Positions 32,340 to 61,982 of a DNA stretch of 64,000 nucleotides are shown piece by piece (positions within the stretch are counted from its first letter, which is position 1; every line of letters starts with the position of its first letter). The position numbers and the translations under genes are program-made. Origin of the DNA: Scenedesmus sp. ARA3 (Eukaryota; Chlorophyta; Chlorophyceae; Sphaeropleales; Scenedesmaceae); NCBI GenBank assembly GCA_004335835.1, contig RWJK01001160.1:123465-187464 (forward strand), given 5' to 3'. The notes under the pieces are model-generated. The model did no database searches. It was not told the origin of the DNA and worked only from the letters and a program-made list of their open reading frames with translations.

Positions 32340-33617
32340 ATGATGGGCCCTCTCGGCGCCATGCGCGCCCTGAGTGGCGCGGTAGCCAAGTCCTTCATGC
32401 TGGCTCAGCAGCAACACAGCAACAGCAGCCAACGTGTGCTGCTGCCATGCATCAGCAGCTTGGTGCGGCAGGCACACACAGCTCAGATCAAGCCGGTGAC
32501 TGAGAAGGAGCAGGCTGCCCTCAGCAAGATTAGGAACATCGGCATCAGCGCCCACATCGACTCAGGCAAGACCACCACCACTGAGCGCATCCTGTTCTAC
32601 ACTGGCAAGATCAAAGACATCCACGAGGTGCGTCATGTAACAGCTTGTCATATGAATGTTAGAAAGTCGAAGGCATAGGTATACAGAGCTTGTCTGTAGC
32701 CAGGTCTAGCTAGCAGCCAGGCCCTCGACATGGTGGCAGCCTGGCACTGGTTGCAACCTGCAGGCAGTACAGGTGCCAGGTGGACAACTTTAGGAGCAGC
32801 AACAGAGTGATGTCAGTATCCCGCTGATAAAGAATGATGTGCAGACGCCAGTGCAGGATATGGCGTTAATCTATTGATGTCAGCAATGCAAAACCGCCAG
32901 ATGTGATGCATGACATGAAAAGTGGCCTGACAGCTCTGGACCTGATACAGCAGTTGACCCTGAACAGCACAGAACCTGCATGCAGCACAACAGCTCTACA
33001 TCTGCAGCTGTGCAGCAGTCACCCAGCACACAGCACCTGCAGCTGTGCAGCTGCAACCAGGCAGCCAGGCCCTGCACCAGGCACCTTGCGGCAATGTTAC
33101 AGCTGCAACCAGGCTCGCAGCCTGGCTCCCTCAAGACTAGGCAGAAACATCCATGCAGCATCAAGCCTGGAAACAGCAGCAGCTGTAGCAGCATGCCTCA
33201 GAATCTCCCTCTTTGATGTCGTCGATTTCCAACTGTTCATTTATATCTGGCCAGGTGCGCGGCAAGGATGGCGTCGGGGCCAAGATGACAGCATGGAGGA
33301 GAGCGGCAAAACATCATGCTTGCATCTTTGCTGCAATCTGACCTATCCCCGTGGCCCCGCTGCTGTTGTTTTGTAACAGGTGCGCGGCAAGGATGGCGTC
33401 GGGGCCAAGATGGACAGCATGGAGCTGGAGCGCGAGAAAGGCATCACCATCCAGAGCGCTGCCACCTACTGCACCTGGAAGGACAAGCAGATCAACATCA
33501 TCGACACACCCGGCCACGTGGACTTCACCATCGAGGTGTGTTACTTTGGGTGGTTAGTAACGTGTCATGTTGTCAGCAAGCTGCTTTGTTGCGTCGGGCG
33601 CTGCATCAACAGCTTGG

Positions 33618-33650
<33 letters not shown>

Positions 33651-36504
33651 TGAGCGGTGGCGGTTTGCGCTGTGGTGGGACGTTGCAACGGTTGTAATTG
33701 CCAATCGCCAGTCGCAGTGCGAGCGCCACAAGAAGGGAACCCTGTTCCTTTGCTGACAGGGTGTTGGTGATGCTTGTTGCGAGCGTCAGGTCAGAACTGA
33801 AGGTCGCTACAGTCGGCATCGTCAGCTATCTTCCACCTCGTGCCATTTTCAACTGGACCTAAACACGTATCACCGCCCCGCTGCTGCCGCGCCCTGCTGC
33901 TGCGCAGGTGGAGCGTGCGCTGCGTGTGCTGGATGGTGCAGTGCTGCTGCTGTGCGGAGTAGGCGGCGTGCAGAGCCAGTCTATCACAGTGGACAGGCAG
34001 ATGCGGCGCTACAGCGTGCCGCGCGTGGTGTTTGTGAACAAGCTGGACCGCGTGGGTGCTAACCCCTGGAAGGTCATCCAGCAGGCGCGGGACAAGCTGA
34101 AGCTGAATGCGGGAGCTGTGCAGGTGAGTGGTATGGTGCAACGGCTGCTGGCATGCTGATGTGATAATCAGCATTGTGCCATGCGTGATGATGCACATAG
34201 GAACGGGCCCGTGCTGACAACTGCCGCCAATTGGTATGACATCTGAGTCCCTACTGTGCTGTGAGGGCAGATACCCATCGGCGCGGAGGCAATGCACGAG
34301 GGTGTGGTGGACATCGTGAGGCGCACACAACATGAATTTCAACACGGTTGTTTTCGACACAACACACCTCAAAAGTAATGCTGTATCCGGCGCTGCTGCA
34401 ACTGCAGATACCTATTGGCGTGGAGGAGTTCCACGAAGGTGTAGTAGACATCGTGAAGCGCAGGGCCATCACGTTTGGCGGCGCCAAGGGCCTGGATGTG
34501 GTTGAGGGCCCGGTACCGGCTGACCTGGCGGAGGAGGTGGAGGCGCGGCGCGCGGAGCTGATTGAGCGCGTGTCAGAGGTGCGGCATGTTATGTAACATG
34601 TTATGTAACATGACATGTTTGAAAGCATGAAGTACAAATTATGGTTTGTGGCGTTCACATCATTGGTGTTGTTGAGGGCCGGGTGCCGGCTGAGCTGGCA
34701 GTGGAGGTGCAGGCGCGGCGCACGGAGCTGGTGGAGCGCATGTCAGAGGTGCGGCATGTAGTAACATGGTAATGACAACATGACGTGACATATGGCTGTA
34801 ACAATATGATCGCTGCGGTGTTCGCCAGAAGGTCAAGCTGGTTGTCATAAGCTAGCTGTACATGCACGCCTCTGCAAGCTTCGCCAGAAGTGTTCCACTT
34901 CAACAGATCTCACTGCTACTGCTGCTGCTGCTGCTGCAGGTTGACGACCAGCTTGCGGAGCAGTTCCTGCTGGAGGAGCCTATCGAGGCTGAGCAGCTGG
35001 CTGCAGCCATCAGGCGCGCCACGCTGGCCAACAAGTTTGCGCCAGTCTTCATGGGCAGCGCGTACAAGAACAAGGGTGAGGCGCTTTTTATGTGTGAGGC
35101 ATGCGTGCCTGGACGGCACAGCCGCTGGGTGTCCCGTTTGGTGCTCTTAGTGTTTTGCGTCTGCTGTTACCTAGGTGATGTGTGGCTATACTTGACCAAG
35201 TAGCACTAGCAGCGCCTCAAGCTGTGCTGATTGCCTGAGCTTAGTTTTGTCACGCCACTTACAGCTGTTGTGTCATACTGTTGTCTGCTTGCGCTGGTGA
35301 TAATGGCCTGCAGGCGTGCAGCCGCTGCTTGATGGTGTGTCAGACTACCTGCCCTGCCCCACAGACGTGCAGAACATTGCGCTGGACATCGACAACAGCG
35401 AGCAGGAGCTGACGCTGCCCTGCAGGTGAGACCAGCAACAGCAAAATCAGCACGGACAGCCCGCCCGGCCCAGGCACCACCACAGCACTCAAGCTGTGCA
35501 GACTGCAGAAGCTGCACTTGCCACGCGTCACTAATGGTTTAAATGCACACAGTGAATGAAGAGTTCAGCCCTCCGCCGCAAAAACAAAGTCTTAACTGCT
35601 GTCTTGCCTATGCACATGCTGCTGCAGCACACCAATGTAGCACATCTTCTCTCGCTGTTGCTGCAGCCTTAGCGGCCCCTTTGTGGGTCTGGCCTTCAAG
35701 CTGGCGGCGGGCAAGCTCACTGCCCTTTTCCTGCACATCTTACACACACAATCACACACGTCCACGCGTGTCCCCCTTATGCTGCAGTGCTCCAGTGTAA
35801 CCCCTCTTCTTTGTGTCACTTCTGTCACTGCAGCCCCTCTGGCCCCTTTGTGGGGCTGGCGTTCAAGCTGGAGGAGGGCAAGTACGGGCAGCTGACCTAC
35901 ATGCGCGTGTACAGCGGCAAGGTGGCCAAGGGAGACTTCATCACCAACAGCAGCAGCGGCAAGCGCACACGCGTGCCGCGCCTGGTGCGCATCCACAGCG
36001 ACGAACTGGAAGACATCCAAGCCGCGGTGGGTGTTTAAAATAATTTCAACCAGGAGCAGGTTGTGACCGAACGGTGTAGGGCCTTGTGCTGTGTTGCTGC
36101 TGTGTTGAGTGGCTGGTGCTCATCCACAGCGGCTAACTGGAGGACGTTTGAAGCGCAGTTTGTGGGTTTCTGGTGGGGTCACACCCAGCAGCAGGAAGAT
36201 GGTTCAAAAATGTTAAGTGTTGTTACAGGTAGAGATGGGTGGTGGCTGATAGAAAGCGCTGTCAGCTGTGTGAGTAGTGGGATTGGCTGGCTAGGTCAAT
36301 GCGTCTCACACCTTGTGCCGCTCTTTCGTCGCTGTTCATATTGCAGAGTGCTGGTGACATCGTGGCGCTCTTTGGCATCGAGTGTGCTAGCAGTGACACC
36401 TTCACTGATGGCAGCGTGAACTTCGCCATGACCTCCATCAAAGTGTCAAAAGCCTGTCTAGTCACACTGTGACCGTGTCGGCTTCAAGCAACACCCACTG
36501 GCTG

Positions 36505-36539
<35 letters not shown>

Positions 36540-37305
36540 AGTCCTTACCGCTCATTCTTGATCCATATGCGTTGTGCCGCTCTCTCCTTGCTGTCTATGT
36601 GCAGAGCGCTGGTGACATCGTGGCGCTCTTCGGCATCGAGTGCGCCAGCGGTGACACCTTCACCGACGGCAGCGTGAACTTCGCGATGACCTCCATCAAA
36701 GTTCCCGACCCCGTGATGAGCGTGAGCCTCACCCCCAAGAGCACCGACCAGCTGGCCAACTTCCAGCGGGCCCTGCAGCGCTTCCAGCGGGAGGACCCCA
36801 CCTTCACTGTCAGCAACAACGCAGGTGGGGGAAGGGTTGTTTTGTTTGCGTTGCCGTGGTTGCTTGCTGTCAGCTGCTGCATCGTTGTCGCTTGCTAGCA
36901 CTATCAGCAGGGACCAGCGTGCCGAGCCGTTGGTGTTACAACGCATGGTTTGTGACTGTGAGGGCCCCACCTTCACTGTCAGCAACAATGCAGGTGAGGG
37001 CGGAGCGCTGCTCTGCGCTGTTACTGTTATTGCTGCATCTTCTGTAGTGCCATCATATGCCTGTAGTTGACAAGCCGACTTCAAGGGCCCTGCAGCGCTT
37101 CCAGCGGGAGGACTCACCGTCACTGTCAGCAACAACGCAGGCGAGGCCGGAGCGGTGCGCCGTTTCGTGGTGGCTGCATCTCCTTCAGTGCTTGTGCTGT
37201 GCAAAGTGTGATTTTGACCGTGTCACAATCTAGTCGAAGCCTGTGCCTGAGTCTCCGTCTTCATTTGAAGTGGTGCTGCGTTGTGTGTGCCCTGCCGCAG
37301 AGACT

Positions 37306-37343
<38 letters not shown>

Positions 37344-39007
37344 GGACATTTACGTGGAGCGCATGCGCCGCGAATACAAGGTGGGATCGATTTCTCAACA
37401 CGCATGTGCAGCCTGTGATGTTGCGCAGAAATCTGTGTGCAGCACTGCCAGTGGCGCTGTGTGTAGCTTATCCGCAAGCTTGTAGTAAGAATCCCCTGAA
37501 GCAAGCCAAGCATTGTGTGCAGAGCTTCCGGTGAACAGCGCTGTGTCACGTCAGTTGCTGCGGTGTCAACCGGTGACCATCTGGCTGCTGCTGCTGCTGC
37601 TGCTGCTGCTCCAGGTTGACTGCGAGGTGGGTCGCCCCAAGGTGAACTACCGGGAGACCATCCAGGCGCGCGCTGAGTTCACGTACCTGCACAAGAAGCA
37701 GAGCGGAGGCTCGGGTGAGCCGGCTGGGCCCCGAGCAGCATGGCTGGCTGACGTGTACGTGTTAATTATGTCAAGCTTGGCTTGGGTGGTGGCTGCTTGC
37801 TCGCTGTGCAGCTGGCTAGTTCAGCTTCACTGTGCATTGCTGCATGGTGCTGGTAGATGAAGGTGCTGACCTGTGGTGCTATCTTACAAGCACCACCTCT
37901 TTCAGCACACAATGTCACAGCCGCCATGTGCTGCAAAACGTTGCCTGACCTGTCACACCTGCCACATGTGAAACACGCCTGCGCCACCCCATGTGTTACA
38001 AACAGATTGCCGCTGATCATGCTGTTGTTGCTGCTGTGCCTGCAGGCCAGTTTGGTAAGGTCGGCGGCTTCATTGAGCCGCTGCCTGAGGACAGCACCAC
38101 CCGCTACGAGTACGCCAACGAGATTGTGGGCAACGTCATCCCCCCTGAATTCTACCCGGCTTGCGAGAAGGGCTTCAGGGAGGCTGCCAATGCAGGGTCA
38201 CTCATCGGAGCACCAGTGGAGGTAAGTGTTGGCTGTTTGGTCGCAAATTTGCGAACTTGTAAGCTTGCAGTTCTCCTGTCCTACTGTCCTACTGTGATTG
38301 TGCTGCATGGCAGCGCTCGGGTGTGTTTACCTGGGCTCTGTGATTTGCAGTCGTTGCACTGGCTGATTACGCACTGCGTGCCTGCGTCACTGCCGCTTGC
38401 TGACCCATGCTGAACTAATTGCCCTGCTGCATCACTGTGGTTGCAGTTTTCATATGCATGGTTCATTGCACATTTTATTGTTTTGAGCTCAGCATCCCCA
38501 TCTTCATACCATGCCAGCGCTGATTCCATCACAACCACAACCACCAACAACAAACTGAGCGTTACACCATGGAACCTGCAACATGTTTGCCTACTGCCGC
38601 AGGGCGTGCGCGTTGTGCTCAACGACGGCGCAGCGCATGCGGTCGACTCCAACGAAATGGCCTTTCGCCTCGCCGCAATCGGCGGCTTCCGGCAAGCCTA
38701 CGCATCTGCACGCCCCACTATCCTGGAGCCTGTCATGAAGGTGGAAGTAACAGTGCCGGTTGAGTTCCAAGGTATCGTCATGGGCGATCTGAACCGGCGC
38801 AAGGGCATGATCTTAGACAGCCGGCAGGAGGCTGAGGACGCTGTGATTGAGGCGATGGTGCCGCTGAACAGTATGTTTGGCTACAGCACGGTGCTGCGCA
38901 GCAACACGCAGGGCAAGGGAGAGTTTGCGATGGAGTACAGCCACCACGCGCCGGTGACTAAGGAGCAGCAGGAGCAGCTGACGTCGGCGGCTGGCAAGAA
39001 GGCCTAG
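32340..39007 (+). CDS. GFM1: Mitochondrial translation elongation factor G (EF-G1)
   Basis: Twelve exons close exactly to 750 residues: 32340..32627, 33380..33535, 33908..34123, 34408..34578, 34940..35075, 35314..35425, 35834..36026, 36605..36824, 37301..37380, 37615..37714, 38046..38221, 38603..39007 (stop TAG). An N-terminal presequence of about 50 residues ([20 protein letters not shown]) precedes the GTPase domain: AHIDSGKT (71-78), REKGITI (114-120), DTPGH (138-142), NKLD (192-195). Domains II to V follow ([40 protein letters not shown], and [27 protein letters not shown]). The [10 protein letters not shown] loop is typical of the mitochondrial GFM1 type, which drives tRNA-mRNA translocation on mitoribosomes. 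Several introns hold partial copies of neighbouring exons, described as repeats. Confidence 0.95.
33253..33652 (+). repeat. Partial intronic copies of EF-G exon 2 (beginning upstream, end downstream)
   Basis: 33253-33308 repeats the acceptor and first about 50 nt of exon 2 (true copy begins 33380) with one base deleted, which frameshifts it. 33617-33652 repeats the last about 30 nt of exon 2 and its GTGTG donor, downstream of the true end at 33535, with a single C to T change. Confidence 0.85.
34266..34760 (+). repeat. Partial intronic copies of EF-G exon 4 (beginning upstream, end downstream)
   Basis: 34266-34322 is a diverged copy of the acceptor and start of exon 4 (true start 34408). 34664-34760 is a diverged copy of its last about 80 nt, the donor and the following GCGGCATGT (true end 34578). 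Confidence 0.85.
35662..36157 (+). repeat. Partial intronic copies of EF-G exon 7 (beginning upstream, end downstream)
   Basis: 35662-35722 copies the acceptor and start of exon 7 (true start 35834). 36108-36157 copies its end region around CATCCACAGCG (true end 36026), now with a TAA in the original frame. Confidence 0.8.
36344..37157 (+). repeat. Partial intronic copies of EF-G exon 8 (one upstream, two downstream)
   Basis: 36344-36450 copies the acceptor and first about 100 nt of exon 8 (true start 36605). 36960-37004 and 37080-37157 copy the last 40-65 nt and donor of exon 8 (true end 36824). All are point-mutated, and the last one carries a small deletion. Confidence 0.85.
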
Positions 39008-39798
39008 GCTGTGTGTGCCTAGGTCTGACGAGGTTGGTTTAGGGTTGTTGGCGCGCAAGAGCGTGGCCGAGAGTGTAGGCCCAGCTAGGGTTTGGCGTGC
39101 AGGATATGCTGTGTGCTTGCGCAGGATGTGTGGGCTGAAGAGTTGTGATGTGATGTGTTTGCACTAAGTGTTTGCTGCAGCGATGCAGCTGCATGCTGCG
39201 TTGTGGCATGGTGGCAGGCCTGCAGCTGCAGGCCACCCATGGCTGGGTTGCACGAACTCAGCCACCAGGTTGGTGACATGTTTTGTTTGCCGCAGTTGAT
39301 GCATGGTGTGCTACCTGTTCGCATGGCTGTTGCACCAGCCAGACATGCCAGTTGTTGGCACTCAGTGGATGAGATTTAGTTCTGCTGCTTTCTTTTCGGA
39401 CCCAGGGGCCTATGGCCGCTGTTTGCAGCACTTGCATTTTTGCAGTCCATGTGCAGACTCTGTGTGCCCAGAGGGCCGTTAACTTTGTGGATTGTCTGGT
39501 TGTTTGATGTGCTGTCTGCTAGCTGTTCTCGATCTTCATCGATTTGAAGCAGCACGATGCTGCTTTGGAGCGTGGATCCATGCTGGATGGCTTGCAATCT
39601 CGCACCCTGCATGTGTGTGAACATGCACAGGTTCAACTGAGTGCAGCTGCCCTGCTACTGTGGTGTTGTGTTACGAATCACTGCTTGCGCATCCCATCCT
39701 GTTGTGACGATCTCAGTAACAGGCAACGCCGGGGTATTCACTAGCGCTTGAAGCAGAACGTTGCATGTACCACAGCTGCCTGTTAACATGTAACATCA

Positions 39799-39850
39799 TC
39801 ATGATGTTACCCATCAAGCCATAGCATCAACGCCATCGGCCCCGCGCCCC
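39799..39850 (+). repeat. Dispersed short repeat (copy 2)
   Basis: About 50 nt beginning GTTACCCATC and ending CCCCGCGCCCC closely match 17031-17080, inside an intron of the EF-hand gene. Shorter matches to its left end occur at 56676-56692 and, on the other strand, at 57183-57200. Confidence 0.6.
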
Positions 39851-40339
39851 AATGGAACATGTAACATGATGTAACGTTACATGGACTGCCTATTAAGGAA
39901 CTCCTCCCGGCGCTGGCGCCCTGCCGGCAGCTGCCAGCTGACAACAGTGTTGGCAACAGAGTACTCTGTTTGACTAGTCAAAAGCAACCTTCTTAGCCTG
40001 CCAGGCTGTGCGGCATCCACACACGCGCCATGCACTGTTGACCCTGCACAGATCAGTTTAAACTAGGCTGTCAGGTTCCAAGCATGCAACGCAGCAGTCC
40101 TTGCAAAGCTAGCGGCGACGAAACATAATCCCCAGTGGCAGCGTGCAGCGGCTCAACAGTCTTCAACATGAGCTGCTATAACCACATCATGCATGTTCAT
40201 TCTGAAAGGAAAGTTCAATGCAGATACTTCAAAACACTACTATTGCGTGACTGACCAGGCGGTGTACATGCGAGCGTCCTACTGACAGCCTCAGGCTGTC
40301 AATATGATGAGCATGGCAGCCTGGCGGCGTGGAACATCT

Positions 40340-41145
40340 TGATGTGAGACGTATCCGCTGACGGTGTGAAAGGACATGCACGCCATGCATGCACAAGACG
40401 CTATGCCCTGAACTAGAAACTAGTGGAAGGCAAGTTGATTTAAGCTGTGTTGTGTTTTGTTATCGCGCCTTTATGTGCATGGATGTGGCGTCCCTGGTTG
40501 GCGCCTGTGAACTGCAGTCGTGGGCGCGACAGGCGTTGCGAATGACGCATGCATGCTAGCACGCCCTCGATACCGCATTAGACGTTTTGAATGGGTTAAT
40601 CTAAGGAGTTAACGAGCATTGCGACTGCTCCAAGACTCGACTGGCGCCCCATTCGTGGGCGTCAGTGTCCTCGCCTGCAGGCGGGCATGCCGGCACGCCC
40701 TGCTACACTGCAGACCCTGACGTGGCGATGTTTACTGTTCCTATGTTTCTATGAAAACAGCGACTGTATCTGCGGCCCCAACACGACTACAGGGAAGAGC
40801 CGCGTGTTTGTAACAGGATTAGCTGCCTTTGGCGTCGTTGTTCACAAACGGAATGCAGCATCCGACATATGCAGTGCGTTTACTGTTTTTTTGCAAAGCT
40901 ACAGCATTTGATGAAAGCCGCTGACGGTGCCCCCTGCGTGGGCGCAATTTTCCCGGCCCGGGGGCAGGGCGTAATCGCACAAGACGCTAATGTCTCAACT
41001 TGCAACTAGTGGAAGGCAANNNNNNNNNNNNNNNNNNNNNNNNNNNNNNNNNNNNNNNNNNNNNNNNNNGCTTGTTGTAACAGGATTAGCTGCCTGTGGC
41101 TTCGTTGTTCACAACCGGAATGCAGCATCCGACATAATTCAGCTC
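40340..41145 (+). repeat. Diverged tandem repeat array around an assembly gap
   Basis: The block CCGCTGACGGTG ... ACAAGACGCTA ... CTAGTGGAAGGCAA occurs at about 40351-40433 and again at 40919-41019, where it runs into the gap. The block TAACAGGATTAGCTGCC ... GAATGCAGCATCCGACATA occurs at 40811-40870 and 41076-41135. The order is conserved, indicating a tandem unit of several hundred bases; the gap probably hides further sequence. Confidence 0.75.
41020..41069. other. Assembly gap (50 N)
   Basis: Fifty N in a row; true length unknown because 50 looks like a placeholder. Confidence 0.99.
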
Positions 41146-43411: not shown

Positions 43412-46400
43412 TCACTGCAGCTTCACCTTGCTCAGCTCCTTGGCTGCTCCATTCAACTGCTGGCCATCGTCCGAGCCGTTCACACCATGCCCGTTCACGT
43501 TGAACTGCGCACCGCTGCCGCCGTTCACGCTGCTGGCACTGCCAGCCTTGCCACTCTGCTGCAGCTGGCCGTTCACAGCAGCAGCCACATATGACTCCAG
43601 GCTGCCGCTGCTGCTGCTAGCATGAACGCCATGGCTGCTGCTGCTGCTGCCATTGACGTGGCTGCTTGCAGCTGCCACTGCATGGCTGCTATAAGCTGCC
43701 CCATGCCCTGACGCATGTTCCGATGACTCAGAAGCTGCTTGATCAGAAGGCGACCCAACCCTGCTGCTGCTGTTGCTGCTGTCGCTCTCCTCATCTGGCT
43801 CTGTAAACTCGCCTCCAGCAGCAGCAGCAGCTGGCACACCAGCCGCACCCACAGCCACACCCACCGCAGCAGCAGCAGCGCCGCCGGCGCCCAACGCCGC
43901 AGCCGCCGCAGCCTGCTGCTGCTGCTGCTGGGCTAGCCGGGCTTTCTCAACCTCCTGCATCTGGCTGTGCAGGCCCAGTGTGGCCTTGATCCAGGTGATG
44001 ATCACGCCGGCGAAAATAACGCCCGTGAAGGGCATGGCTGCTGCGATGCTGCCGCAGCCCAGCAGGAACGCCTGCGTGATCCAGCTGGCGCCAGACTTGC
44101 CGATCTGCAGGCATAAAGACCCATAGAAGACATAAAGACGCATAGAAGACACAACCCGAGAGGTCAATGACACCAACACACGGGAATGTGCCTATGCTAT
44201 TAGGAAGGCCTGCGTGATCCAGCTGGCGCCAGACTTGCCGATCTGCAGGCATAAAAAGGCGTAGGAGAAACAACCTCAGTGGTGAGTCACACCAACACAC
44301 GAGAATGTGCGTATGACTATTAGGAAGGCCTGCGTGATCCAGCTGGCGCCAGACTTGCCGATCTGCAGCAGCAGATAGGTTTGAAAAGAGATGAGAATGA
44401 GCGCAAATGAAATTACTGTGCATCACTGTGCCTTGGTGCCAGCCAGTGCTGTGAGGAGCTATATCTGCTGCAAGAACCCGGTTGCGCAGCCGCAAAAGGA
44501 CACACTAATGCGCCTGTGAGTAATGTAGATCCCTGGCAGAAGCATAATTTGGCACCCAGTGTGGCAGCAGCAACCGCAGCTGCATCATGCGCCAGGCCCA
44601 GAACACACGGCACCCACCTGGCTGCCCACGAGGTCCACTGCTGCCTTGCCCTGCTTCTTCTCGTCAGCATCCATCTCGATGTACACCTGGAAGCAGCAGC
44701 AGCAGCAGCAGCAGCAGCGATGGAGGCAGCACGCAGGGTGCGAGCAAGTGATCTGAGGTAGCTCACGGGGTGCTGAGCTGGCGCATAAACATACAGCACA
44801 CTGAGAGATACGGACAGTGGCTGTTGCTAAAAGCCCTTGTGGCAATCCAGAGCCATATCGGGCTGTGTGATTTGTTTGAAAGCAGCCTGTTGCCACATTC
44901 AAGCATCTATGGAGCGCCGATACCAACGGCTAGTTGCCTGCTGGCTCACCATCTCCTTGGCTGGGTCGAACAGCGAGTACTTGCTGGCGCGGGCAAACAC
45001 CTGCAGCAGCAGCAGCAGCAGCGGCGACGCCGATGGTCAGCAAGGCGGGGATCAGCAACGCAAATGGTGCATCACCGTTGCCGTGCACGCTCGCAGCGTG
45101 TAGGCACGTGCGCCGCGTGCTGGCAATCACAAGCACCAGCATTAAATGTGACGGCGGGCTGATGCTGCGTCTCACTGCTCAAGGTACGATGGGCTGCCGT
45201 GCATACATGAGCTTGTACGGCGTGAAGCTGTGACTGCTGTGGGGGCTGCAGCTATAGCCTAGGCATAGCCACAATACATATGTGTCCCAGTCATACAGCC
45301 TGTAATTCTGTCAATGCATCTTGTGTAGTGCCTGCTCCACACATTGAAGCACACAGTGCACAAGGTGTGCTTACAAAATTACTACAGGGCATAACTCATG
45401 CCCTACGCCCCAATGCGTCACACGGCCCACCACGACTGACGCCCTGCAACCCACCTGTGTCACCAACCCGGCTGTGGCGCCCACACCACCAACTGTCGCT
45501 CCCATCTCCGGCGACAGGCTCGGCAGGCATGCCACCACTTTCCCGCAAATCAAAAAAATCGTGCTTGCTACACCCAGCCACTACTACTATAAACTTTCAG
45601 CGGTGGCCCCGATGCCCGCAATACTCGTTGCTACCGCTATCAGTACTGCTATGTCTGCCGCCACGCGCGACATGACTGCACACAACCCACCTGCGTCACC
45701 ACGCCGGCCGTAGCTCCAATGCCCGCAATCGTCGCTGCCATCTCCGGCGACAAACTCGGCAGGCCTGCCAGCAGCGTGCCCGCAAAGAACATCGTGCCGG
45801 CGACACCCATCACGGCCGGCGTGACAGATGCTGCCACGCCCCAGCCCGCGTGCTGGAAGACTAAGCGGCTCACAACCATGCTCGCAAGTGTGAGCATGCC
45901 GGTGTATGTTGCTACATCTGCGAGGACTGACTGGTAGCCCTGCACGGTGGGGTACAGCAGCCGCAGCTGGCCCTTCCAGGCAAACTCAAACAGCCTGCAG
46001 AGTGAGGAGCAGGAGCAGGCGCAGGGAAAGCAGCAGCGGAAACAGCGTCAGTACAGCACAGTTGAGCACGGTGGGGTACAGCAGCTGGCCCTTCTACACA
46101 AACTCAACCAGCCGGCGCAGGAGTGAGAGGAGCAGCAGGGTGGAGGCAGCGTACAGAGCATAAGTGGGGCACGGTCCGGATACAACAGTTGCAGTGAGAC
46201 CTTCCATGCATAAAGAAACAGCCTGCGCAAAGCAGCATGCACAAGCATAGCATGCCGGTGTATGTTGCTACATCAGCGAGGGCTGATTGGTAGCCCTTTG
46301 CATAAAACTAACCACTTTGGTTCACCTGTGCCCCACGCCGTAGCTCATCACCAGCAGCGCAAGGTTGCGGATCTTGGGGCTCTTCTTCAGCACCGCAATG

Positions 46401-46804
46401 CCCTCACCAAAGCTGCCCTTGCTCTTCTTCTTCTTGCCAGCCGGCTTGGCAGCACCACCTGCTGCTGCTGCTGCACCGTCGGCTGATTTCAGAGCAGGCT
46501 GCAGCACCTTTGCGTCTATGAAGGCCTTGGCAGCAAACATGGCGCCTGTCATGGCCATGACGGTGCCGATGAGCACGCGCAGGCTGAGCAGCTGCGTGTC
46601 GCCTGCAGCAGCAGCAGCAACAGCGGTGGCAGCAGCAGTGGCGGCAGTGGCAACAAGCAGGCGTCAGGCTGCACCTTGCAATGCTGTTGCAGCCGTGTTG
46701 GTATGCTTGCCTGCTGACCTGTGCGTGCTGCATGTATGAGCTGACAGGTACAGAGCTGCCTGCAATTGAAGCCGGCTACAGCCCAAACGCATATGTACAC
46801 GGGC

Positions 46805-46845
<41 letters not shown>

Positions 46846-48329: not shown

Positions 48330-48369
<40 letters not shown>

Positions 48370-52090: not shown

Positions 52091-52121
<31 letters not shown>

Positions 52122-52757: not shown

Positions 52758-52807
<50 letters not shown>

Positions 52808-52810
52808 TAG

Positions 52811-52850
<40 letters not shown>

Positions 52851-54144
52851 GGCAGCAGCAGCGGCAGCAGGAGGAGGGGCTTTGCCTGCTGTCAGCAACT
52901 CAGCTCTCTACTGCAGCATTTACCTGATTGGCATCATGCTTAGTCCTGCTGCGAGAACCTATTGCGATTTTGGTTTCTGAGACGCCCCCATGTTTCCTTT
53001 CATGTGGGATGTTATATGGTATGTTATGTAATGCTTGCAGGCATCTGCTATGCGTGAGCTGAGCTACAGCGCCATCCGTATGGGGCTGTACGATGAGGTC
53101 AAAGAGCTGCTGGCTGGTGAGGCAGGTCAACTGCAGCTCTGCTCAAAATGCAGTTTATGCAGACCCCGCAACAGACCGTGTTCAACAGTGCAGCACAGCG
53201 TCTGCCTTAGAACTTGCGCTGTCCTGCAGCAGATGCTGGTGTCAGCTGCAGCAGAGGCAGCGAGTGCTGAACGTGCCGCAGCAGCGCTGCAGCTCGTGTG
53301 CTGACCACACACATCATCACAGCTCACATATCTGCTTTCAACACACCATCATTGCTGTCACTGAGGCTGCACCAGTGCTTCTGCAACTGCCTGCTGCTCT
53401 GCTCCATCAGTCCATGGTGATGACCGCTACAGCTTCCCCTTGTGGAAGAAGATTGTGGCTGGCGGCATCTCAGGCTGCATCGGCGCAGCAATAGCCAGCC
53501 CCACAGGTGAGGCGATGTCCGCTGAGGGCCAGCCCCATGCATGTCATTTATCTTTTGTAACAGTCTCACCTGCTGTCAGAGATCTGTGAGGGGTTGTGGT
53601 CGCGACTGTGCTTCAGGCTCATTCTGTCTTTCATTTAACACCAGCATGGCTAGCAATTGATTTGGTGAGCTGGGGGCAGCCAGTGCTCAGCGCTGCTGTC
53701 AGACAATCGCTACTTGCCAAGTCAGAACCCGAAGACACAAATGGCAACGCAGTGGCGGACATGTAACGCTGCCTTGTAACACAGATCTGGTGAAGATCCG
53801 TGCCCAGGCGCTGAACCCCGCCACGGGCCGGCCCTTCTACAGCTACCCCAGCCCCTGGGCAGCACTGGGCATCATCTACCGCACAGAAGGAGGCATTGCA
53901 GGCATGTACAGGTGAGCCTGCTGCTGCTGCTGCTGCTGCTGCTTCTGAGTCTGTTTCTGATGGGGCTGCTGCTTCGTGTATCATCTATCGCACAGAGGGT
54001 GGCATAGCAGGCATGTACAGGTGGGCCTGCTGCTCCTGCTGTTGCTGCTGCTGCTGCTGCTGAGTCTGTCCTTGATGGGGTCGCTGCTTGGTGTATCATC
54101 TACCACACAGAAGGAGGCATCGCAGGCATGTACAGGTGAGCCAT

Positions 54145-54238
<94 letters not shown>

Positions 54239-56428
54239 GCCTGCTGCTCTGGTTGGCAAGGCAATGAGTTGCGACTTGGATTCATCCTTGCAAAGCGCTT
54301 GATTGATACCAGCTAGTGTCTCTGCTGTCTGCCTGAGCAATGCCAGGAATAGTATCTGCAGTAATGCCTTATGTTCTGACACGCTCCTGTACGCTGTTCC
54401 CTGCATATTGTGTCCGCCTGCCGCTGCAGGGGTGTGGTGCCTACCGTGCAGCGAGCAATGGTGCTGACAGCAACCCAGTTTGCGACGTATGGTGAGAGCC
54501 AGCATCATTGCACAATGGCACCTGCTCTGCTGCTTCATTTGTGCCAGCACAAGCAGCAGCAATGACATGCTATGCAGTACAGCCATCTTATTGGTGATGG
54601 TTTTTACATCTTGAAGTTGATGTTCGGCTACAACCTCTGTTTTATGTCACATGTTACTTAACATGCTGTGTGGCATGTCTGCTGCAGATGAGGTCAAGTA
54701 CCTGCTGGTAGGCAACGGCTTATTAAAGGAGGGTGTGGGCGCACACATTGCTTCCAGCATCACTGCCCCTGACAACCACAACCACAGTCTGTCATAACAA
54801 GTGAATCTGTCATATTACAAGTTATGTATCATGTTGTGTTGCAGATGAGGTCAAGTACCTGCTGATAGGCAATGGCTTATTGGAGGAGGGCGTGGGTGCA
54901 CACATCGCCTCCAGCATCACTGCCCCTGACAACCACAACTACAGTCTGTCGTAACATGTTATGTGACATGTTGTGCTGCAGATGAGGTCAAGTACCTGCT
55001 GATAGGCAACGGCTTGTTAGAGGAGGGCGTGGGAGCACACATTGCTTCCAGCATCACTGCTGGCCTGGCTGTGGCCACCACCACCAACCCCCTGGACCTG
55101 GTCAAGTCCCGCTACATGAACCAGGAGTTTGATAAGGTGGGTTTAGGGGGTTTTAAGGGGTTGCGGGTTGATTAGCATTATTGTTCATATGTTTTGGGTC
55201 GTAGATTGGCGTGGTGGCCTGGCTGTGGCCACCACCACCAGCCCCCTGGACCTGGTCAAGTCGCGCTACATGAACCAGGAGTTTGACAATGTGAGGCAAG
55301 CGTTGAGGATTTGATGTTGTAGGGTTTGGGGTGTAATTGATGGTTCAGGGCCTCCTGTGGCCACCACCACCAACCCCCTGGACCTGGTCCAGTCGCGCTA
55401 CATGAACCAGGAGTTTGACAAGCTGGGTTTAGGGGTGTTGCAGGGGTTGCGAGTTGATCAGCATAAGGGTTTGGATGTTGTGGGGCTTAGGTTGATGGCC
55501 TGGCTGTGGCCACCACCACCAACTCCCTAGACCTGGTCAAGTCGCGATACCAGGAGTTCAACAAGGTGTGTTTAGGTCATTCAGGCGTTGAAGTGCAGTA
55601 GCATATGAGCGATGATGTTTGCGTGTCAGGTTGATGGGCTGGCCACCACCACCAACCCTTTTTGGAAGCCCCTGCCACGCTACTGAACCAGGAGTTCAAC
55701 AAAGTGGGTTTAGGGGCAGTCGTTGAGAGTGAGGTGGAAAAGGTGAGGATTTGCCTTTGTCAGTGTGTGGTTAACCGACGTGCATGCTGCAAGTGCAACA
55801 GCATGTCTGAGTTCGTTTACTCAGTTGATGACGGGTGTTGCTGCTGCAACACTCGCAAGGGGCTGCGCTACAGCAGCATGGGTGACCGCGCAACGACGTC
55901 GCTGCATTGGTGCCGCAACTATCTGTCTGTGGCACGTTGATTGCCGTGTGTGCTGCTGCTGCCGCAGGTGACGGGCAAGGGTCTGCGCTACAGCGGCGTG
56001 GCTGACTGCCTGATGAAGACGCTGCGGGCGGAGGGGCTGCGCGGGCTGTACAAGGGATGGCTGCCCAACTGGCTGCGCATCGGGTGAGGCTCCAGCTGTC
56101 AGTTTTTCAAATGTTTGACCAGGTTCGACCAGGTTCGACCAGGTTTGACTGTTGAGTTGCCGTCATCACACGTCCTGTCTGGTTCCTCTGACGAAACATT
56201 GTAGGAGAGCTGGATACAGCAGCTGCTTGCAGCCTGTCTTGAGGCTGCAGCTGGGCAACAGCCAGCGTCCGTCAACGCTGGCAAGGCATCCTCACACGCC
56301 GCCTGGATGCTCAGTCGGAATACGTGTGTGTTTGCTGCCTGCTGTTCGCCTGCTGCAGGCCGCACACCGTCATCACCTTCCTCAGCTTTGAGGCTCTCAG
56401 GAAGGCCGCAGGACTGGAGGCAGTCTAA
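51678..56428 (+). CDS. Mitochondrial carrier family (SLC25) protein, uncoupling/dicarboxylate-carrier-like
   Basis: Ten exons close in phase to 320 residues: 51678..51703, 52045..52085, 52408..52601, 53041..53116, 53411..53506, 53785..53911, 54430..54491, 54982..55136, 55968..56083, 56359..56428 (stop TAA). All three carrier signatures PxDxxK are present: NPADVLKVR, SPTDLVKIR and NPLDLVKSR, each one repeat (about 100 residues) apart, with GGISGCIGAAI, GGIAGMYRGVVPTVQRA and GLRGLYKGWLPNWLRIGPHT in canonical places. The combination resembles the UCP/DIC/oxoglutarate branch of the inner-membrane carriers; the substrate cannot be fixed from motifs. The first exon is tiny (26 nt, MAKRDPFPG across the junction). 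Intron 3 has a long (CAG)n tract, and exons 6, 8 and 9 have partial copies around them. Confidence 0.9.
52759..52870 (+). repeat. (CAG)n microsatellite in carrier intron
   Basis: About 110 nt of almost pure GCA/CAG triplets with occasional ATA, ACA and GCG interruptions. Confidence 0.95.
53972..54138 (+). repeat. Two downstream copies of the end of carrier exon 6
   Basis: 53972-54022 and 54087-54138 copy the last about 45 nt (ATCATCTAYCRCACAGA ... ATGTACAG) plus donor of exon 6 (true end 53911). Each is followed by a (CTG)n tract and GAGTCTGT...GATGGGG, giving a unit of about 115 bp. Each copy could act as a donor-bearing decoy. Confidence 0.9.
54148..54237 (+). repeat. Pure (CTG)30 tract in carrier intron
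   Basis: Thirty uninterrupted CTG units, directly after the second copy of the end of exon 6. Confidence 0.97.
54685..54977 (+). repeat. Two upstream copies of the beginning of carrier exon 8
   Basis: 54685-54770 and 54839-54925 repeat the acceptor and first about 80 nt of exon 8 (true start 54982), then both switch to the same sequence CCCCTGACAACCACAA and a spacer. The unit is about 145 bp. Confidence 0.92.
55212..55712 (+). repeat. Four downstream copies of the end of carrier exon 8
   Basis: Copies at 55212-55296, 55350-55424, 55497-55570 and 55632-55712 carry GTGGCCACCACCACC ... ATGAACCAGGAGTTTGA (true end 55136) followed by donor-like GTG and GGGTTTAGG-type intron sequence. They become shorter and more mutated with distance. 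Confidence 0.92.
55842..55905 (+). repeat. Upstream copy of the beginning of carrier exon 9
   Basis: Diverged copy of AAGGGTCTGCGCTACAGC and its surroundings; the true exon starts at 55968. Confidence 0.7.
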
Positions 56429-58184
56429 GTAGTGGTTGCACTTGACCCCTGCTGCCAGGGTTCACGATTTGCCAGTCAACGGTTGAAACCTACTGGAGAG
56501 GGCGGGCACTTTGGATTCCTTCGGCTGGGGCGCAGTGAGCTGCTAAACGCAGTGCCTCAATCTAAGTTCCCTGCTGTGTGGGAGCTGGTGTGTTGCCATT
56601 GGGGTGGTTTTGAGTCACGCGGTCATTGTTGCACTGCATGTATCTAAACCCCCATGTGATTGCTTGAGTCATCATCATGTTACTCATCAAGCCATGTGAT
56701 TGCTTGAGTATAAGACCTGCAGCTTAAGCTGTGTGCCCTTTTTTTTTCTGTGCTGGCATCTGATGCATCATGATCTTGCATAAGTCAGCAGCAGCATTTG
56801 GATATGCCTCAGAGCAAGATTGTAAATGTGGGACTTGGCGCACCGAGAGAGCACCGTTTGACTATGTACGACTTTACTATAGTGTTTCGCCACAAGGCGC
56901 ACGTGGCAGTAACATCAGCACTTGGGTCGTTACATCACAGCGCGGCGCATCATCGGTGCAGACAACATGTTCAGCACTCTCCTGCTGCGGATGCGGCACC
57001 ATGACCACCCAGTGCATGCAGAGACAAGGCACAGAGCTACTGCTCTGTGTAACCCTGGACGTGCTGACGGAGTTGCTGCTGCCACAGCCCTGGCGTGTAC
57101 AGGCACAAATAGCTGTTTGGGCTGCAGCTGCCGGTTGCGATCAGCACTGTGTAGCAGCATATGGCACTGACGCTATGGCTTGATGGGTAACATGATGATG
57201 GCACTGATGCCGAGAACAACCTGAAACTCCCAGCAACACATTGACAACGTGTCGGGCTGAACCCAACAATAAATTTGACAACCACAGGTTGTCGGTGACA
57301 ACTGAAAAGCTCCAAGCTGGGATCTAGCGCATGCTATGCTACAACACGAGCTTGCATGCTCGAGCAAATGCCATGCCTGCCGCCCACCAACAAAACCGCA
57401 GCAACGCGTACGCAGCACAGCAGCCATTCCACAGCACCATGCTGTGCAACATACTGCACAAAGTCGCAGTCTGAACTGCAATACACCCCACTCGCAACAC
57501 ACGCACACACCACATTGCACTCAACGCCTGCCTGAAACCAGCACCCAACTTGTGTTGATCAATTTTGCACCTGTTCAAGATTGACTCAGCGTCCTGCAAG
57601 CCCTTCGTAGCACAACTTGCGTCATGAACACCAGCTGCCAGGCACGGACCCCTCTCACCCATAACACCATGTTACAATGCGGCTTCTGTTATCATCAGCG
57701 CAGCTCCGACTGCGAGTGCACCGCTCAGTAGCAAGCCTTGCGGCACCGCCAGTGCTGCTGATGCCCATCCGCGTAGAGTCAGCTGCGCAGCAAATGCGAG
57801 TACCAGAACAGCATGAGATGCGCTCATCAGCACAGCACCGCCTGCGCTTGACAGCACAGCACTGCATGCACTCAACAGACCAGCGAGCAGCAGAAGATCA
57901 GCACAGCACTACACTTGACACCTGACTCAGCACTCACAGCCATTCACAAAATCCATCACAGCCGCAACACAGCCACTCTCACTCACCCCGACACACAACT
58001 GCAACTCAATGCTGTTGCATTCTGGTGGTGGTCCTGCTCCCTCTGCATTAAAGTCAACACTCAGCTCAGAAGCAGATACACAGGCAAACCAGCGCAGTGT
58101 CTGAACACTGCAGGTGACCCTCACACACAACTGAATCTACTTTTACTCCGGTTGCATATATCAGCGCGACATCCGATTGTATCA
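56429..58184. other. Convergent intergenic region, 1.75 kb
   Basis: Between the stops of the carrier and the rhodanese gene. It contains a 9-T run at 56740-56748 and short fragments related to the dispersed repeat (56676-56692, 57183-57200). I recognise no gene. Confidence 0.4.
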
Positions 58185-58271
58185 TCAGCGCGAAAACACG
58201 GACGCCAGCTGTGGCAGCCGCAGGGCCCCCACCCTGAAACCGCCAGACATGTCATCATCGTCATCCTCATC

Positions 58272-58302
<31 letters not shown>

Positions 58303-58442
58303 AGGCCTGGTACTGCTGCTGGATCCTCAGGCCCCTGGGCCATCGGCAGCTGCTCACGGCGCCACTCCGCAATTCCGCCGCTGACATATGCAATGTTCTT
58401 GAAGCCTGCCTGCTGCAGGAAATAGACAGCCTTCAGCGACCT

Positions 58443-58481
<39 letters not shown>

Positions 58482-61400
58482 CAAGCCGCAGCAGCAAGGT
58501 GGTTCCAAGCGTCAGGAGCGACAGTGCTGGCAGCCGCAGCTGTTAGAGGCAAGAGAGCTGTTGCAAGGCAAGCAGCGGCACTGCCAACAGGCCTCAGCCA
58601 TGGCGGGCTATGCAACAGAAATGTTGCCCACTCGGAGCGCCAGGAGCCCTAGGGCGGGGGGCTTCTGGACCAGCATTGCTTGAAGGTGCGCAGTTATGCT
58701 TTTACTATGCCTAGAATCGTCCTATTTAGACATGTTTCTTGGCGCCATTTGACAACTCCTCATCCAAAGACTGCACTGAACAGTGCAGTACGCTGCACCT
58801 GGCCAGAGTAGCTTGGCCTCACACCATGGCCAACAGGCGCTACAGCTGCGCAGCTTTGACACACAATGCATGCCGTGGCTGATTTGGCACCAGTCGCTCA
58901 GCATATCGCTCTTTGCTGCTTGTCCCTTTTTGCCAGTTTCCACGTGTATGTGCATATGTCTGTTGCTGGTTGCTTGTCGCTTGCATGTGTGGCTGCTCAC
59001 CGTGACTGGAAGCCGTACTTGGTGCCTGACTTGTTCTCCAAGCTGCCGCCATTCTCACACATGACCACCAGCTGCTTGCCTGCGGCACAGAGAAACACAC
59101 GTATACACGTCTGTACTTCACTAATTCAAGGCTGCACAAACTCTTCTAACATATGCTGGTGTTCTGGCCTTTTTGATAGGCGTGCATTGCAGGCCAGCCG
59201 CTCAAAGCAGCTCCAAACCACGCAGCAAGCTAGCTTTGGGGCGAACACTGCAGCAAAAGGGCATGCATGTGTGTGCAAGTTGTGCGCTCACCCTTGGGCA
59301 CTCGGCTCAGCACATCATCTCCAAAGTTGGTGTTCAGCTCTGCAGCGGCAGCAGCAGCAGCAGCAGCAGAATGCATCAAGTTGCTTTGGCCATGCAGAGC
59401 AACAAAGGAATCGCATGCAGGGTGCGCATACATGGCATTGCTCAGTACAGAAACCACCAGCCATGCCGCAGCATCCACAACCTGACCTGGAAATGATCGC
59501 AGATCATCCAGGACTGATTACACCTGCGCAATATGCAGCAGCTGCTGCAGCCAACGCGCAAGGCCAGACCCACACGCGACAACCCGCCTGCTATTGCTGA
59601 CAGTTTGCTGTAGGTCAACTATTAGAGGCGCTACACCTCCACATGTGCTGTAGAAGATGCTGAGAAGGCAAAGCCGGCCTGTTGTTACTGACGCCTGCTG
59701 CCATGCTGGTGTTAGCTCAATTTCCAGACAAAACAACTAGACCTCACACACACCTGTGCCATAAATGCCGAAAAGGCAAAGCCGGCACGGCGCAGCCTGG
59801 AGAACAGGTCCCACGTCAACAACAAAAGCACCAGCATCAAACCTGTGTGCCCTGGAACCCACCTGTCCCATAGATGCCGAGGAAAGCAAATCCAGCGCGG
59901 CCCAGCGTGGTGGGCAGGTCCCACCTCCAATGAGATAGCAAATCATTATGTATTTCAAACTGTAATACCCAGCCCCACCTGTGCCATAACAGTCGAAGAA
60001 AGCGAACCCAGCGCGTTGCAGCGTGGAGGGCAGGTCCCACCTCCAACACTTGCAAGATCCACCAAGAGCATCAAGCCTGTGTGCCCTGAAACCTACCTGT
60101 GCCATAGATGCCGAAGAAAGCAAAGCCAGCGCGGCGCAGCGTAGAGGGTACGTCCCACTTCCAAGAAGATAACAAAATGTATTACAGAACTGTAAGACCC
60201 AGCCCACCTGTGCCGTAGATGCCGAAGAAAGCAAACCCGGCACGGCGCAGCGTGGAGGGCAGGTCCAACTTCCAACACATACGAATCCACCAAGAGCATC
60301 AAACATGTGTGCCCTAAAACCCACATGTGCCGTAAATGCCGAAGAAAGCAAAGCCAGCGCGGCGCAGCGTGGAGGGCAGGTCCCACTTCAACAGCAAAGC
60401 ATCATATCGATCACAACCCAGGCACTAAAACACACACCTGTGCCATAGATGCCGAAGAAAGCAAAGCCAGCGCGGCGCAGCGTGGAGGGCAGGTCCCACT
60501 TCTGGATGGGGTTGTACAGCGGCGTGCTGAGCGAACATGCCGCGTGAGAGGCCTCATACTTGTTGCCTAGGCGCACATCCAGCAGCACCGCTGACCCACT
60601 GCACTTTGCGGAACAAAGCGTGGATTGGGAAAGCAGGGATTCATGCATGACAGCGTTTGCCTGATATGTGAGAGGTCTCAAACTTGTTGCCAAGGGCACA
60701 TCCAGCAGCGCCGCTGACCCACTGCAAATGGAAAGGCAGGCGAGGAAGGGAGAAGTGGCAGACGACTGAAAAACCACATGTGTAAAGACACCTGGTGCCG
60801 TTGGCAGCTTCCCAGAGACACCCAGGCAGGATCCTGCTATGACACGAATGCATGCATTGTGCAAAATTTTACAGGGTTTACAGCGGCGCGCTGAGGGAGC
60901 ATGCCGCGCGAGAGGCCTCAAACTTGTTGCCCAAGCGCACATCCAGCAGCACCGCTGACCCGCTGCATTTGTGAAACAAAGCGTATATTGGGAAAGCAGG
61001 GATCAGTGCATGACAGCTGGTGCCTGATATGTGGGAGGCCTCGAACTTGTTGCTAAGGCGCACAGCCCGCAGCACTGCTGACCCGCTGCATAGGTGAAGG
61101 CAGGCAAGGCGAGGGAGAGAGAGAGTGGCAGAGAGAGGGGCAGAGAGAGAGAGAGAGAGAGTGGCAGACGACTGAAAAACCACAGGTGTACAGACACCTG
61201 GTGTGTTGCAGCTTTCGAAGACACCCATGCAGGATGCCTCCATGACCCTCAAGCACGGGCGAAGCACACTTCCGGGGGCCGCCACACATGAAGGGCACAC
61301 CCCACACACATCCTCCAACATTCACTACATTGCTTTGGTCAGCCCTGCGGGCTCCAGCATGACTGACTCTACACAATAGCCCCTGGAGATGTGCATGATA

Positions 61401-61840
61401 ACACTGCAACAGCTGCTGTTGCTCACCGCCAGCATGTGGGGTAGGCAGTCTTAGCCCCCTGGCCGCTTCAGCTGTTAACAATTTGAAAGCTGCTGCACTG
61501 CTGTCACGCCATTCCCACTGCCTCCCCCAGGCCTGTTCATGCCACCATCTGCCAGCCTGGGCCATAGCAGGCACTTTGTTTCAACTGTTGCTGTTTGTGT
61601 ATGCCTCCTAATGGGACCCCAGCTGGTTCACACCTGACTCGCTCAATGCTGCATCGTGCTACTCTACTCTTGAGACCAAACAAAAGCCTTACCTCTTGCA
61701 CTTGGCGTATGCCTCCTTGGGTTCCAGCTGCTTCACGCCTGTGCTGCTGAGTGCCTCATAGATGTCGCGCCACTCCAGGTCCTCCTTGAAGCTGTCCTTA
61801 AAGCGCGGGATGACAAAGAAGGTGCCCACAAAGCTGGCGC
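58185..61840 (-). CDS. Chloroplast rhodanese-like sulfurtransferase (plant STR9/10/11-like); N-terminal exon unresolved
   Basis: Exons 61693..61840, 60438..60598, 59292..59339, 59001..59079 and 58185..58440 join in phase to the stop. They encode a lead (EDLEWRDIYEALSSTGVKQL), then the rhodanese fold: VLLDVRLGNKYEASHAACS, LPSTLRRAGFAFFGIYGTG, ELNTNFGDDVLSRVPKGKQLVVMCENGGS with the presumed active-site Cys, QSRSLKAVYFLQQAGFKNIAYVSGG and IAEWRREQLP. The RRLGFAFFGIF-like insert and CxxGGS loop are features of plastid STR9-11 proteins of plants. A thiosulfate or persulfide sulfurtransferase role is expected for the family; substrates are unknown. The C-tail is Ser/Asp-rich. The transit-peptide exon is not fixed; an ATG at 62564 (MALQGRCLCVLRCLGPASSS) is a candidate. 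Confidence 0.85.
59748..60390 (-). repeat. Six downstream copies of the end of rhodanese exon 60438-60598, in alternating (dimeric) units
   Basis: Copies at 60325-60390, 60208-60272, 60096-60163, 59979-60045, 59862-59930 and 59748-59814 match the last about 60 nt (RRAGFAFFGIYGTG) plus donor. Two spacer types alternate: one contains CCACCAAGAGCATCAA, the other AGATAACAAAATGTATT-like sequence, so the array grew as a dimer of about 230 bp. Confidence 0.93.
60666..61091 (-). repeat. Three upstream copies of the beginning of rhodanese exon 60438-60598
   Basis: Copies at 60666-60725, 60880-60967 and 61026-61091 repeat the acceptor and SAVLLDVRLGNKFEAS segment; the longest copy runs into a TAA after SAPL. 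Spacers alternate between two types (GGAAAGCAGGGAT... and GTGGCAGACGACTGAAAAACC...), again a dimeric unit. Confidence 0.9.
61111..61165 (+). repeat. (GA)n-rich microsatellite
   Basis: Runs of GAGAGA interrupted by GTGGCA and GGGGC, inside a spacer of the exon-copy array. Confidence 0.9.
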
Positions 61841-61925
61841 CTGCAGCGGGAAAAAAAGGGAAACAAGGTGCATGCCAAAGGGCGCAGCCAGGCTTGGTCA
61901 AACAGCACAGTGTCACAGGCAGTGG

Positions 61926-61982
61926 GCATTTTTGAAGCGCGGGATGACACAGAAGGTGCCCACAAAGCTGGCGCCTGCGGCA
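61926..61982 (-). repeat. Upstream copy of the beginning of rhodanese exon 61693-61840
   Basis: Repeats the acceptor and GASFVGTFxVIPRFK coding segment with few substitutions; the true exon starts at 61840. Confidence 0.88.

Follow-up and report, generated by a model that had tools for sequence, protein, structure and literature searches.

Internal gene duplication in eukaryotes produces tandem segments within a gene, some of them with introns (Gao and Lynch 2009, as cited in PMC3443670 and PMC4974935), and in potato RdRp a tandem duplication crosses an exon boundary, the duplicate containing the 3' part of an intron together with the 5' part of the exon that follows it (PMC4974935). In the tandem genomic duplication model of intron gain, an exonic AGGT supplies both the donor and the acceptor of the new intron (Rogers 1989, Hellsten 2011; via PMC3443670 and PMC4974935). 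Small tandem duplications also arise by Pol alpha-primase fill-in at staggered breaks, as described in mammalian cells for overhangs of 43 and 50 base pairs (bp) (PMC8355091), and introners were found chiefly in rapidly evolving lineages, green algae among them (PMC9860276). Here we analyze a stretch of 64,000 nucleotides from the green alga Scenedesmus sp. ARA3 (the window: positions 123,465-187,464 of contig RWJK01001160.1, in an assembly totaling 87.3 Mb), in which the introns of four neighboring genes, encoding EF-G, a plastid-type ATP/ADP transporter (NTT), a mitochondrial carrier and a rhodanese-domain protein, contain partial, diverged copies of the genes' own exons, termed here echoes.

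The locus resembles boundary-crossing internal gene duplications in that its copies are direct, local and confined to the gene, and reach an exon edge on the matching side. It shares with internal gene duplication the tandem duplication of within-gene segments, but differs in having dozens of echoes in four neighboring genes, a size mode of about 125 bp, arrays of exon edges and a cliff of identity at the splice site. The potato case is a single event that made a new intron, whereas many echoes are present here and a new intron is not demonstrated (PMC4974935). As in the intron-gain model, duplication is local and survival is decided by splice sites; however, existing introns are enlarged here, whereas the model requires an exonic AGGT and creates a new one. 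Pol alpha-primase fill-in likewise yields short direct duplications, though in a mammalian system and with no link to exons in the portion of that report bearing on the matter (PMC8355091). Introners resemble the echoes in being widespread intron sequence, but represent one element copied into many genes (PMC9860276), whereas 13 spacers from between echoes, searched against the assembly with a method that skips very common words, matched only themselves and two local siblings, which places the echoes outside that class. Single boundary-crossing duplications were thus already known, and what is new here is the direct copies at a spacing of about 125 bp, their genome-wide but patchy spread, the splice-site cliff and the older exon states. 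An earlier note on this DNA, made from the sequence alone, knew of no named description of such a system; this holds for the dense arrays, in that our literature search turned up no description of exon-edge arrays or of such density, size mode and cliff, but not for internal gene duplication and the boundary-crossing case, which are in print (PMC3443670, PMC4974935).

Beginnings upstream, ends downstream

Because a home-made gene finder merged genes and called echoes exons, its models were corrected by hand, with reading frame and protein homology as guides. The first protein queries against PDB (NTT and the carrier) still included echo pieces, but the later Pfam queries were free of them: the joined exons of all four genes matched Pfam (EF-G: GTP_EFTU 7e-60 and EFG_III 3e-30; NTT: TLC 1.5e-97; carrier: Mito_carr 7e-46; rhodanese: Rhodanese 4e-8), and the retained exons are therefore most likely the working ones. 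Local alignment of the 34 curated exons, one by one, with neighboring introns (threshold from shuffled targets; an edge scored as reached when the copy came within 12 bases of it) yielded 44 exon-like intron copies, bearing out the earlier note's tally of at least 40. All 16 copies of an exon's beginning lay upstream of the parent exon, and all 24 copies of an exon's end lay downstream, such that 40 of the 44 reached a splice-site edge on the matching side, as that note had asserted. The remaining four were of neither kind: two weak mid-exon matches (0.62 and 0.63 identity), an upstream mid-exon piece (0.78) and a weak long alignment (0.69) that includes an end copy. Apart from this last alignment, no complete exon copy with both splice sites was present among the 44, and the arrays thus do not qualify as tandem exon duplications or mutually exclusive exons.

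Self-BLAST of the window, with triplet and other short-period repeats masked (E up to 1e-3), recovered 48 direct repeat pairs less than 1 kb apart, every one within 33,252-61,990. It returned no direct local pair in the first 33 kb, in agreement with the earlier impression that the left-half genes show no copies. Within EF-G, exons 2, 4, 7 and 8 are flanked by echoes on both sides, and the other eight have no clear echo (one weak mid-exon match lies near exon 1). The features are as follows, with parent exons in parentheses; copies were identified by exon-intron alignment, together with any further evidence named.

32340-39007, plus strand: EF-G gene, 12 exons (gene finder, Pfam)
33255-33316, plus: beginning of EF-G exon 2 (33380-33535), 125 bp upstream; exon side 24/24 identical, intron flank 0.43 (self-BLAST, flank comparison)
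33605-33647, plus: end of EF-G exon 2, GT donor retained (splice-site check)
34271-34325, plus: beginning of EF-G exon 4 (34408-34578)
34621-34748, plus: end of EF-G exon 4, intron flank homologous (flank test)
35674-35715, plus: beginning of EF-G exon 7 (35834-36026)
36113-36145, plus: end of EF-G exon 7
36347-36535, plus: beginning of EF-G exon 8 (36605-36824), matching closely over 36313-36444 (self-BLAST)
36960-37140, plus: two copies of the end of EF-G exon 8
43840-50407, minus strand: plastid-type ATP/ADP transporter gene (NTT), 10 curated exons (Pfam; PDB 9j3j, 3e-65)
44202-44362, minus: two copies of the beginning of the final curated NTT exon (43840-44104), 41 bp matching at 0.98 identity
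45455-45576, minus: end of NTT exon 7 (45691-45994)
46066-46297, minus: beginning of NTT exon 7 plus a mid-exon piece
47036-47116, minus: beginning of NTT exon 5 (46853-46992)
47308-47476, minus: end of NTT exon 4 (47550-47800); 52 codons compared, 11 synonymous and 5 nonsynonymous changes
47858-47907, minus: beginning of NTT exon 4
48274-48490, minus: two copies of the end of NTT exon 3 (48550-48663)
49060-49315, minus: end of NTT exon 2 (49353-49466) in two copies, of which the nearer spans nearly the whole exon weakly (0.69)
49959-50005, minus: end of NTT exon 1 (50221-50407)
53041-56428, plus: mitochondrial carrier gene, seven curated exons covering all but the 5' part (Pfam; PDB UCP1, 2e-35)
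53963-54135, plus: two copies of the end of carrier exon 3 (53785-53911)
54688-54923, plus: two copies of the beginning of carrier exon 5 (54982-55136)
55212-55696, plus: four copies of the end of carrier exon 5
55855-55905, plus: beginning of carrier exon 6 (55968-56082)
58250-61840, minus: rhodanese-domain gene, five exons curated by eye (Pfam, sequence)
59754-60389, minus: six copies of the end of rhodanese exon 2 (60438-60598), two spacer types alternating
60668-61084, minus: three copies of the beginning of rhodanese exon 2
61585-61669, minus: weak copy of the end of rhodanese exon 1, 0.69 identity
61932-61974, minus: beginning of rhodanese exon 1 (61692-61840)

The end copy of NTT exon 4 is a candidate alternative exon: it is open in frame, with an acceptor-like start, a donor and 11 of its 16 changed codons synonymous. 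Elsewhere in the window, a 58-bp direct repeat (95% identity, 40,812-41,136) brackets a gap of 50 N (41,020-41,069) that possibly marks an unmerged scaffold join.

When duplication spans an acceptor, the exon start exists twice, but the remainder of the exon follows only the second copy and the first is stranded upstream; a unit crossing a donor strands the surplus exon end downstream, and one lying within an exon breaks the protein. By this reasoning, the positional rule follows from splice-site-crossing tandem duplication together with selection for an intact mRNA and is not itself a new law, and the sidedness favors local tandem events over dispersed copying. The same sidedness can be reasoned to result from classical intron gain, in which an exonic AGGT segment is duplicated and the echo forms half of a new intron. 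This origin is the least probable of those weighed here: the splice site of an echo is of the same kind as that of its parent edge, which also removes echoes from that class, and they sit within introns that end at a different exon.

Recurrence, spacing and distribution

The rule recurs in chaperonin genes, which were located with PF00118 and sampled as stretches from five of the 11 matching contigs. The Pfam matches themselves served as exons, and 31 cores were counted after one had been shortened at a stop and three matches had been dropped as echoes, on the grounds of a longer match of the same part or of the repeat list. All 58 copies around these cores obeyed the rule by side (26 upstream, 32 downstream), although their density is no random estimate, the first two stretches having been chosen partly for hints of doubled exon pieces. 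Copy numbers are uneven: one chaperonin gene (L027) has no echoes and another (L026) has three, and across the window and the chaperonin loci the number per edge ranges from 0 to 6. The three matches judged to be echoes (1513-1596 and 8187-8294 in L023, and 1666-1761 in L024) serve as a warning for annotation, as echoes can score as exons. Two further regions of L023 (4771-5621 and 6681-7592) contain dense repeats between identified chaperonin exons, and these may be echoes of exons without a Pfam match.

Across a 242-kb sample, which combined the window and its flank with stretches taken from other contigs and was not strictly random, 78 direct local repeat families stood against a single inverted pair (E 1e-4). 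Spacing fell within 110-139 bp in 35 of the 78 families and below 80 bp in none; a looser E of 1e-3 added one pair at 57 bp and a few inverted pairs. In the chaperonin loci there were 60 direct families and no inverted ones, with spacings starting in the 70-79 bin and fullest at 120-129 bp. Tandem Repeats Finder, applied to 282 kb, reported 64 arrays with periods of 13-24, 12 of 25-49, four of 50-99 and 16 of 100-139. Some repeats are non-coding by coding score yet similarly spaced (127 bp in L009, 1729-2099, and 134 bp in L005), and the size mode thus does not seem to need exons. Such a preferred unit points to a specific, identifiable lesion or repair step. A different kind of repeat, which by eye is a minisatellite with a unit near 30 bp, is present in L013 (4116-4236).

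Families cluster (no family in 11 of 22 10-kb bins; variance 15.7 versus a mean of 2.95). Echoes are genome-wide but patchy, and the suggestion that the process might be local fails, as they occur elsewhere in the sample and in chaperonin genes. Upstream and downstream echoes co-occur at exons (17 with both, nine upstream only, seven downstream only, 32 with neither; p 0.0002, or 0.001 without L027, window matches under 0.72 identity being excluded). By eye, the gene at 5640-6960 of L019, presumably a phosphofructokinase, has one exon that is preceded upstream by a row of about eight beginning-like copies and followed downstream by a single end copy.

The splice-site cliff and older exon states

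We compared real edges with echoes position by position without gaps, using the 35 of 44 window copies with identity above 0.72 that reached to within 3 bases of the edge. Moving outward, identity was 0.93-0.94 over the last ten exon bases, 0.95-0.96 at the GT or AG, 0.71-0.79 over the next four positions, 0.43-0.52 over the four after that and 0.29-0.43 beyond. The chaperonin copies (37 of 58 usable), whose splice sites were picked by score and open frame independently of echoes, gave 0.94-0.95, 0.91-0.95, 0.74-0.77, 0.41-0.51 and 0.23-0.49 in the same order. Similarity between exon and echo thus breaks abruptly at the splice consensus, from about 0.94 to about 0.35, with the qualification that requiring copies to reach the edge favors intact edges and that ungapped comparison depresses the values farthest out, as in NTT exon 1, whose flank scores 0.07 ungapped yet ranks first once gaps are allowed.

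The position of the cliff just beyond the splice consensus, and the retention of splice sites in echoes (GT in 19/21 and AG in 13/14 in the window; 20/21 and 14/16 in chaperonins), would both be expected if echoes were functional decoy or alternative exon edges under selection, as would a median donor score equal to that of real sites (10.5 each, in the window). We nevertheless regard such a function as improbable: the median acceptor score falls below that of real sites (7.7 versus 10.5), block identity of 0.92-0.95 by itself predicts most of the retention, copy number varies from 0 to 6 per edge, and differences confined to one echo are 43% synonymous (151/349), above the neutral 30% and near the value for a neutral echo combined with silent changes in the exon.

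Codon differences bear more directly on the history of the copies. Over 740 codons (copies under 0.75 identity or without a frame excluded), 208 differed between window echoes and their exons, 105 synonymously and 103 nonsynonymously. The expected synonymous share is 0.304 for purely neutral change and, by our own arithmetic, about 0.47 for a neutral echo compared with an exon that changes only silently. Variants common to at least two echoes of one edge were mostly synonymous (12:3 in the window, 37:9 in chaperonins, pooled 49:12), unlike variants found in a single echo (32:38, 119:160 and 151:198, respectively; for chaperonins the latter include sites covered by one echo only). The two classes differ with a pooled p of 6e-8, although variants within one array are not fully independent. 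Because common variants are so largely synonymous, the natural reading of these sequences is that mostly silent changes arose in the exon once the echoes had formed, so that echoes keep older exon states; among the four end copies of carrier exon 5, for example, three carry an identical silent difference from the exon at two sites. Selection on protein encoded by the echoes, considered on account of a synonymous bias seen by eye in some, was set aside, as the pooled count fits a neutral echo compared with a silently changing exon, although the echoes are heterogeneous (p 0.003).

High exon identity beside low intron identity also resembles diverged alleles, and together with the pair that brackets the N gap might indicate an assembly artifact in which haplotypes or unmerged overlaps were stitched in tandem. 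This is very improbable given the strict sidedness, the presence of up to six copies beside a single edge, which is no haplotype pattern, and codon changes that are too often nonsynonymous for two working alleles. Moreover, there was no sign of a second copy of the locus in the assembly, where a 401-bp piece matched once and the 13 spacers, in the search that skips very common words, were single apart from their local siblings.

Proposed founders and exchange, and alternatives

The best reading of these results, to which we assign a probability of roughly 0.55, is that the duplications are old, that their intron parts have since diverged, and that exchange has renewed and multiplied their exon blocks. 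In this scheme the genome would give rise to tandem duplications of a preferred size, about 95-170 bp (mode near 125); those inside exons would be lost, whereas those across one splice site would survive, the full exon still working and the surplus edge left in the intron, as the strict sidedness suggests. The founders would be mostly old, with many intron parts diverged beyond recognition, while exon blocks and splice consensus would stay alike because the functional exon barely changes, and short-range exchange (gene conversion or unequal exchange of neighboring blocks) would renew and multiply the exon-derived blocks. Two arrays fit this history. One, a young array in L022 with 98% identity, has by eye two near-identical spacers but a different sequence past the last block, which fits multiplication inside the exon blocks of an older pair; in the rhodanese end array, blocks are 0.77-0.95 alike throughout and spacers are clearly alike only within each of the two types.

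The intron flanks bear on both this history and its chief competitor. In a set of 24 window pairs and one L019 pair, the flank of an echo's own partner ranked ahead of all mismatched partners in 12 of the 25 nearest pairs, or in 14 when a first rank by either of two scores is accepted, indicating that many duplicated units included intron. However, 15 of the 21 pairs with at least 23 of 24 identical exon-edge bases have a flank identity of 0.43 or less (+7 to +20, ungapped), as at EF-G exon 2, and the L019 end copy, 66 bp at 97%, also has an unlike flank. A break at an exon edge repaired by copying that edge and joining it through an unrelated filler of about 60 bp would produce such pairs directly, with spacers that were never homologous, and small tandem duplications through fill-in of staggered breaks are known experimentally (PMC8355091). 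This origin appears unlikely, as it leaves unaccounted for the own-partner similarity, the narrowness of total spacing while block length varies, and the failure of the spacer search, within its treatment of common words, to find any source elsewhere in the genome.

Several observations weigh against old founders renewed by exchange. By our own arithmetic, a neutral echo about 5% diverged should have flanks about 90% alike, and the unlike flanks thus need either strong homogenization or spacers non-homologous from birth. Exon changes still missing from echoes indicate that the putative exchange would be incomplete. Only two of 31 window families lie off exons and mapped echoes (one at the N gap, one within a longer exon-bearing repeat), whereas uniform duplication should, by a rough estimate, yield about half off exons, unless exon-free ones have decayed from sight; nor does this history account for the emptiness of half the 10-kb bins. 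Finally, chaperonin differences (201 synonymous to 179) slightly exceed the 0.47 expectation, window single-echo variants are more synonymous than neutral (32/70, p 0.009), and window echoes differ among themselves (p 0.003).

The earlier note had attributed the echoes to short tandem duplications of which only those that cross a single splice site survive. That cause accounts for orientation, side and preserved protein but, with 15 of 21 flanks unlike, is insufficient alone, and the cliff led us to reject repeated tandem duplication in its simple form as the only cause. Nor does similarity generally decay with distance, as had been supposed: it does so at four of the 11 edges with three or more copies, strictly at two, and at exon 7 in L024 the nearest copy has 0.85 identity and the three farthest 0.98. 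Two further candidates were rejected: insertion of whole exons, leaving half an exon on each side (Spearman correlations of block length with exon length of -0.19 and 0.05; side counts often unequal), and mobile spacers, which the 13 spacers, matching only their own locus in the search that skips very common words, do not resemble.

Introns thus probably record, in part, former versions of exons, laid down by repeated duplications of about 125 bases, and echoes offer a dense natural record of duplication, splice-site selection and local recombination. Introns of such genes may lengthen largely through exon-edge copying, and the retained exon states would allow silent change to be read within a single genome. 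A tentative extension, possible though doubtful, is that exon edges act as permanent recombination seeds: after an initial duplication, an edge and its echoes would go on exchanging and multiplying, the intron sequence around them being at liberty to change entirely, and introns would grow as self-renewing edge arrays that keep splice sites intact and preserve earlier coding versions.

The GC (guanine plus cytosine) fraction is 0.568, a composition similar to the one reported for Tetradesmus obliquus (GC 57%, with introns averaging 462 bp; PMC5966456). Searches of the window for RNA families and tRNAs found none. About 12% of the window sequence (7,749 bases) was masked as CTG/CAG-type or other short-period repeat, part of which encodes extended stretches of Q, L, S or A in predicted exons, and a GCA repeat stands at the end of both window and contig. 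A dispersed repeat of 40-59 bp, unlike the local echoes, occurs at 17019-17077, 39794-39851 and 57161-57200 as two direct copies and one inverted copy.

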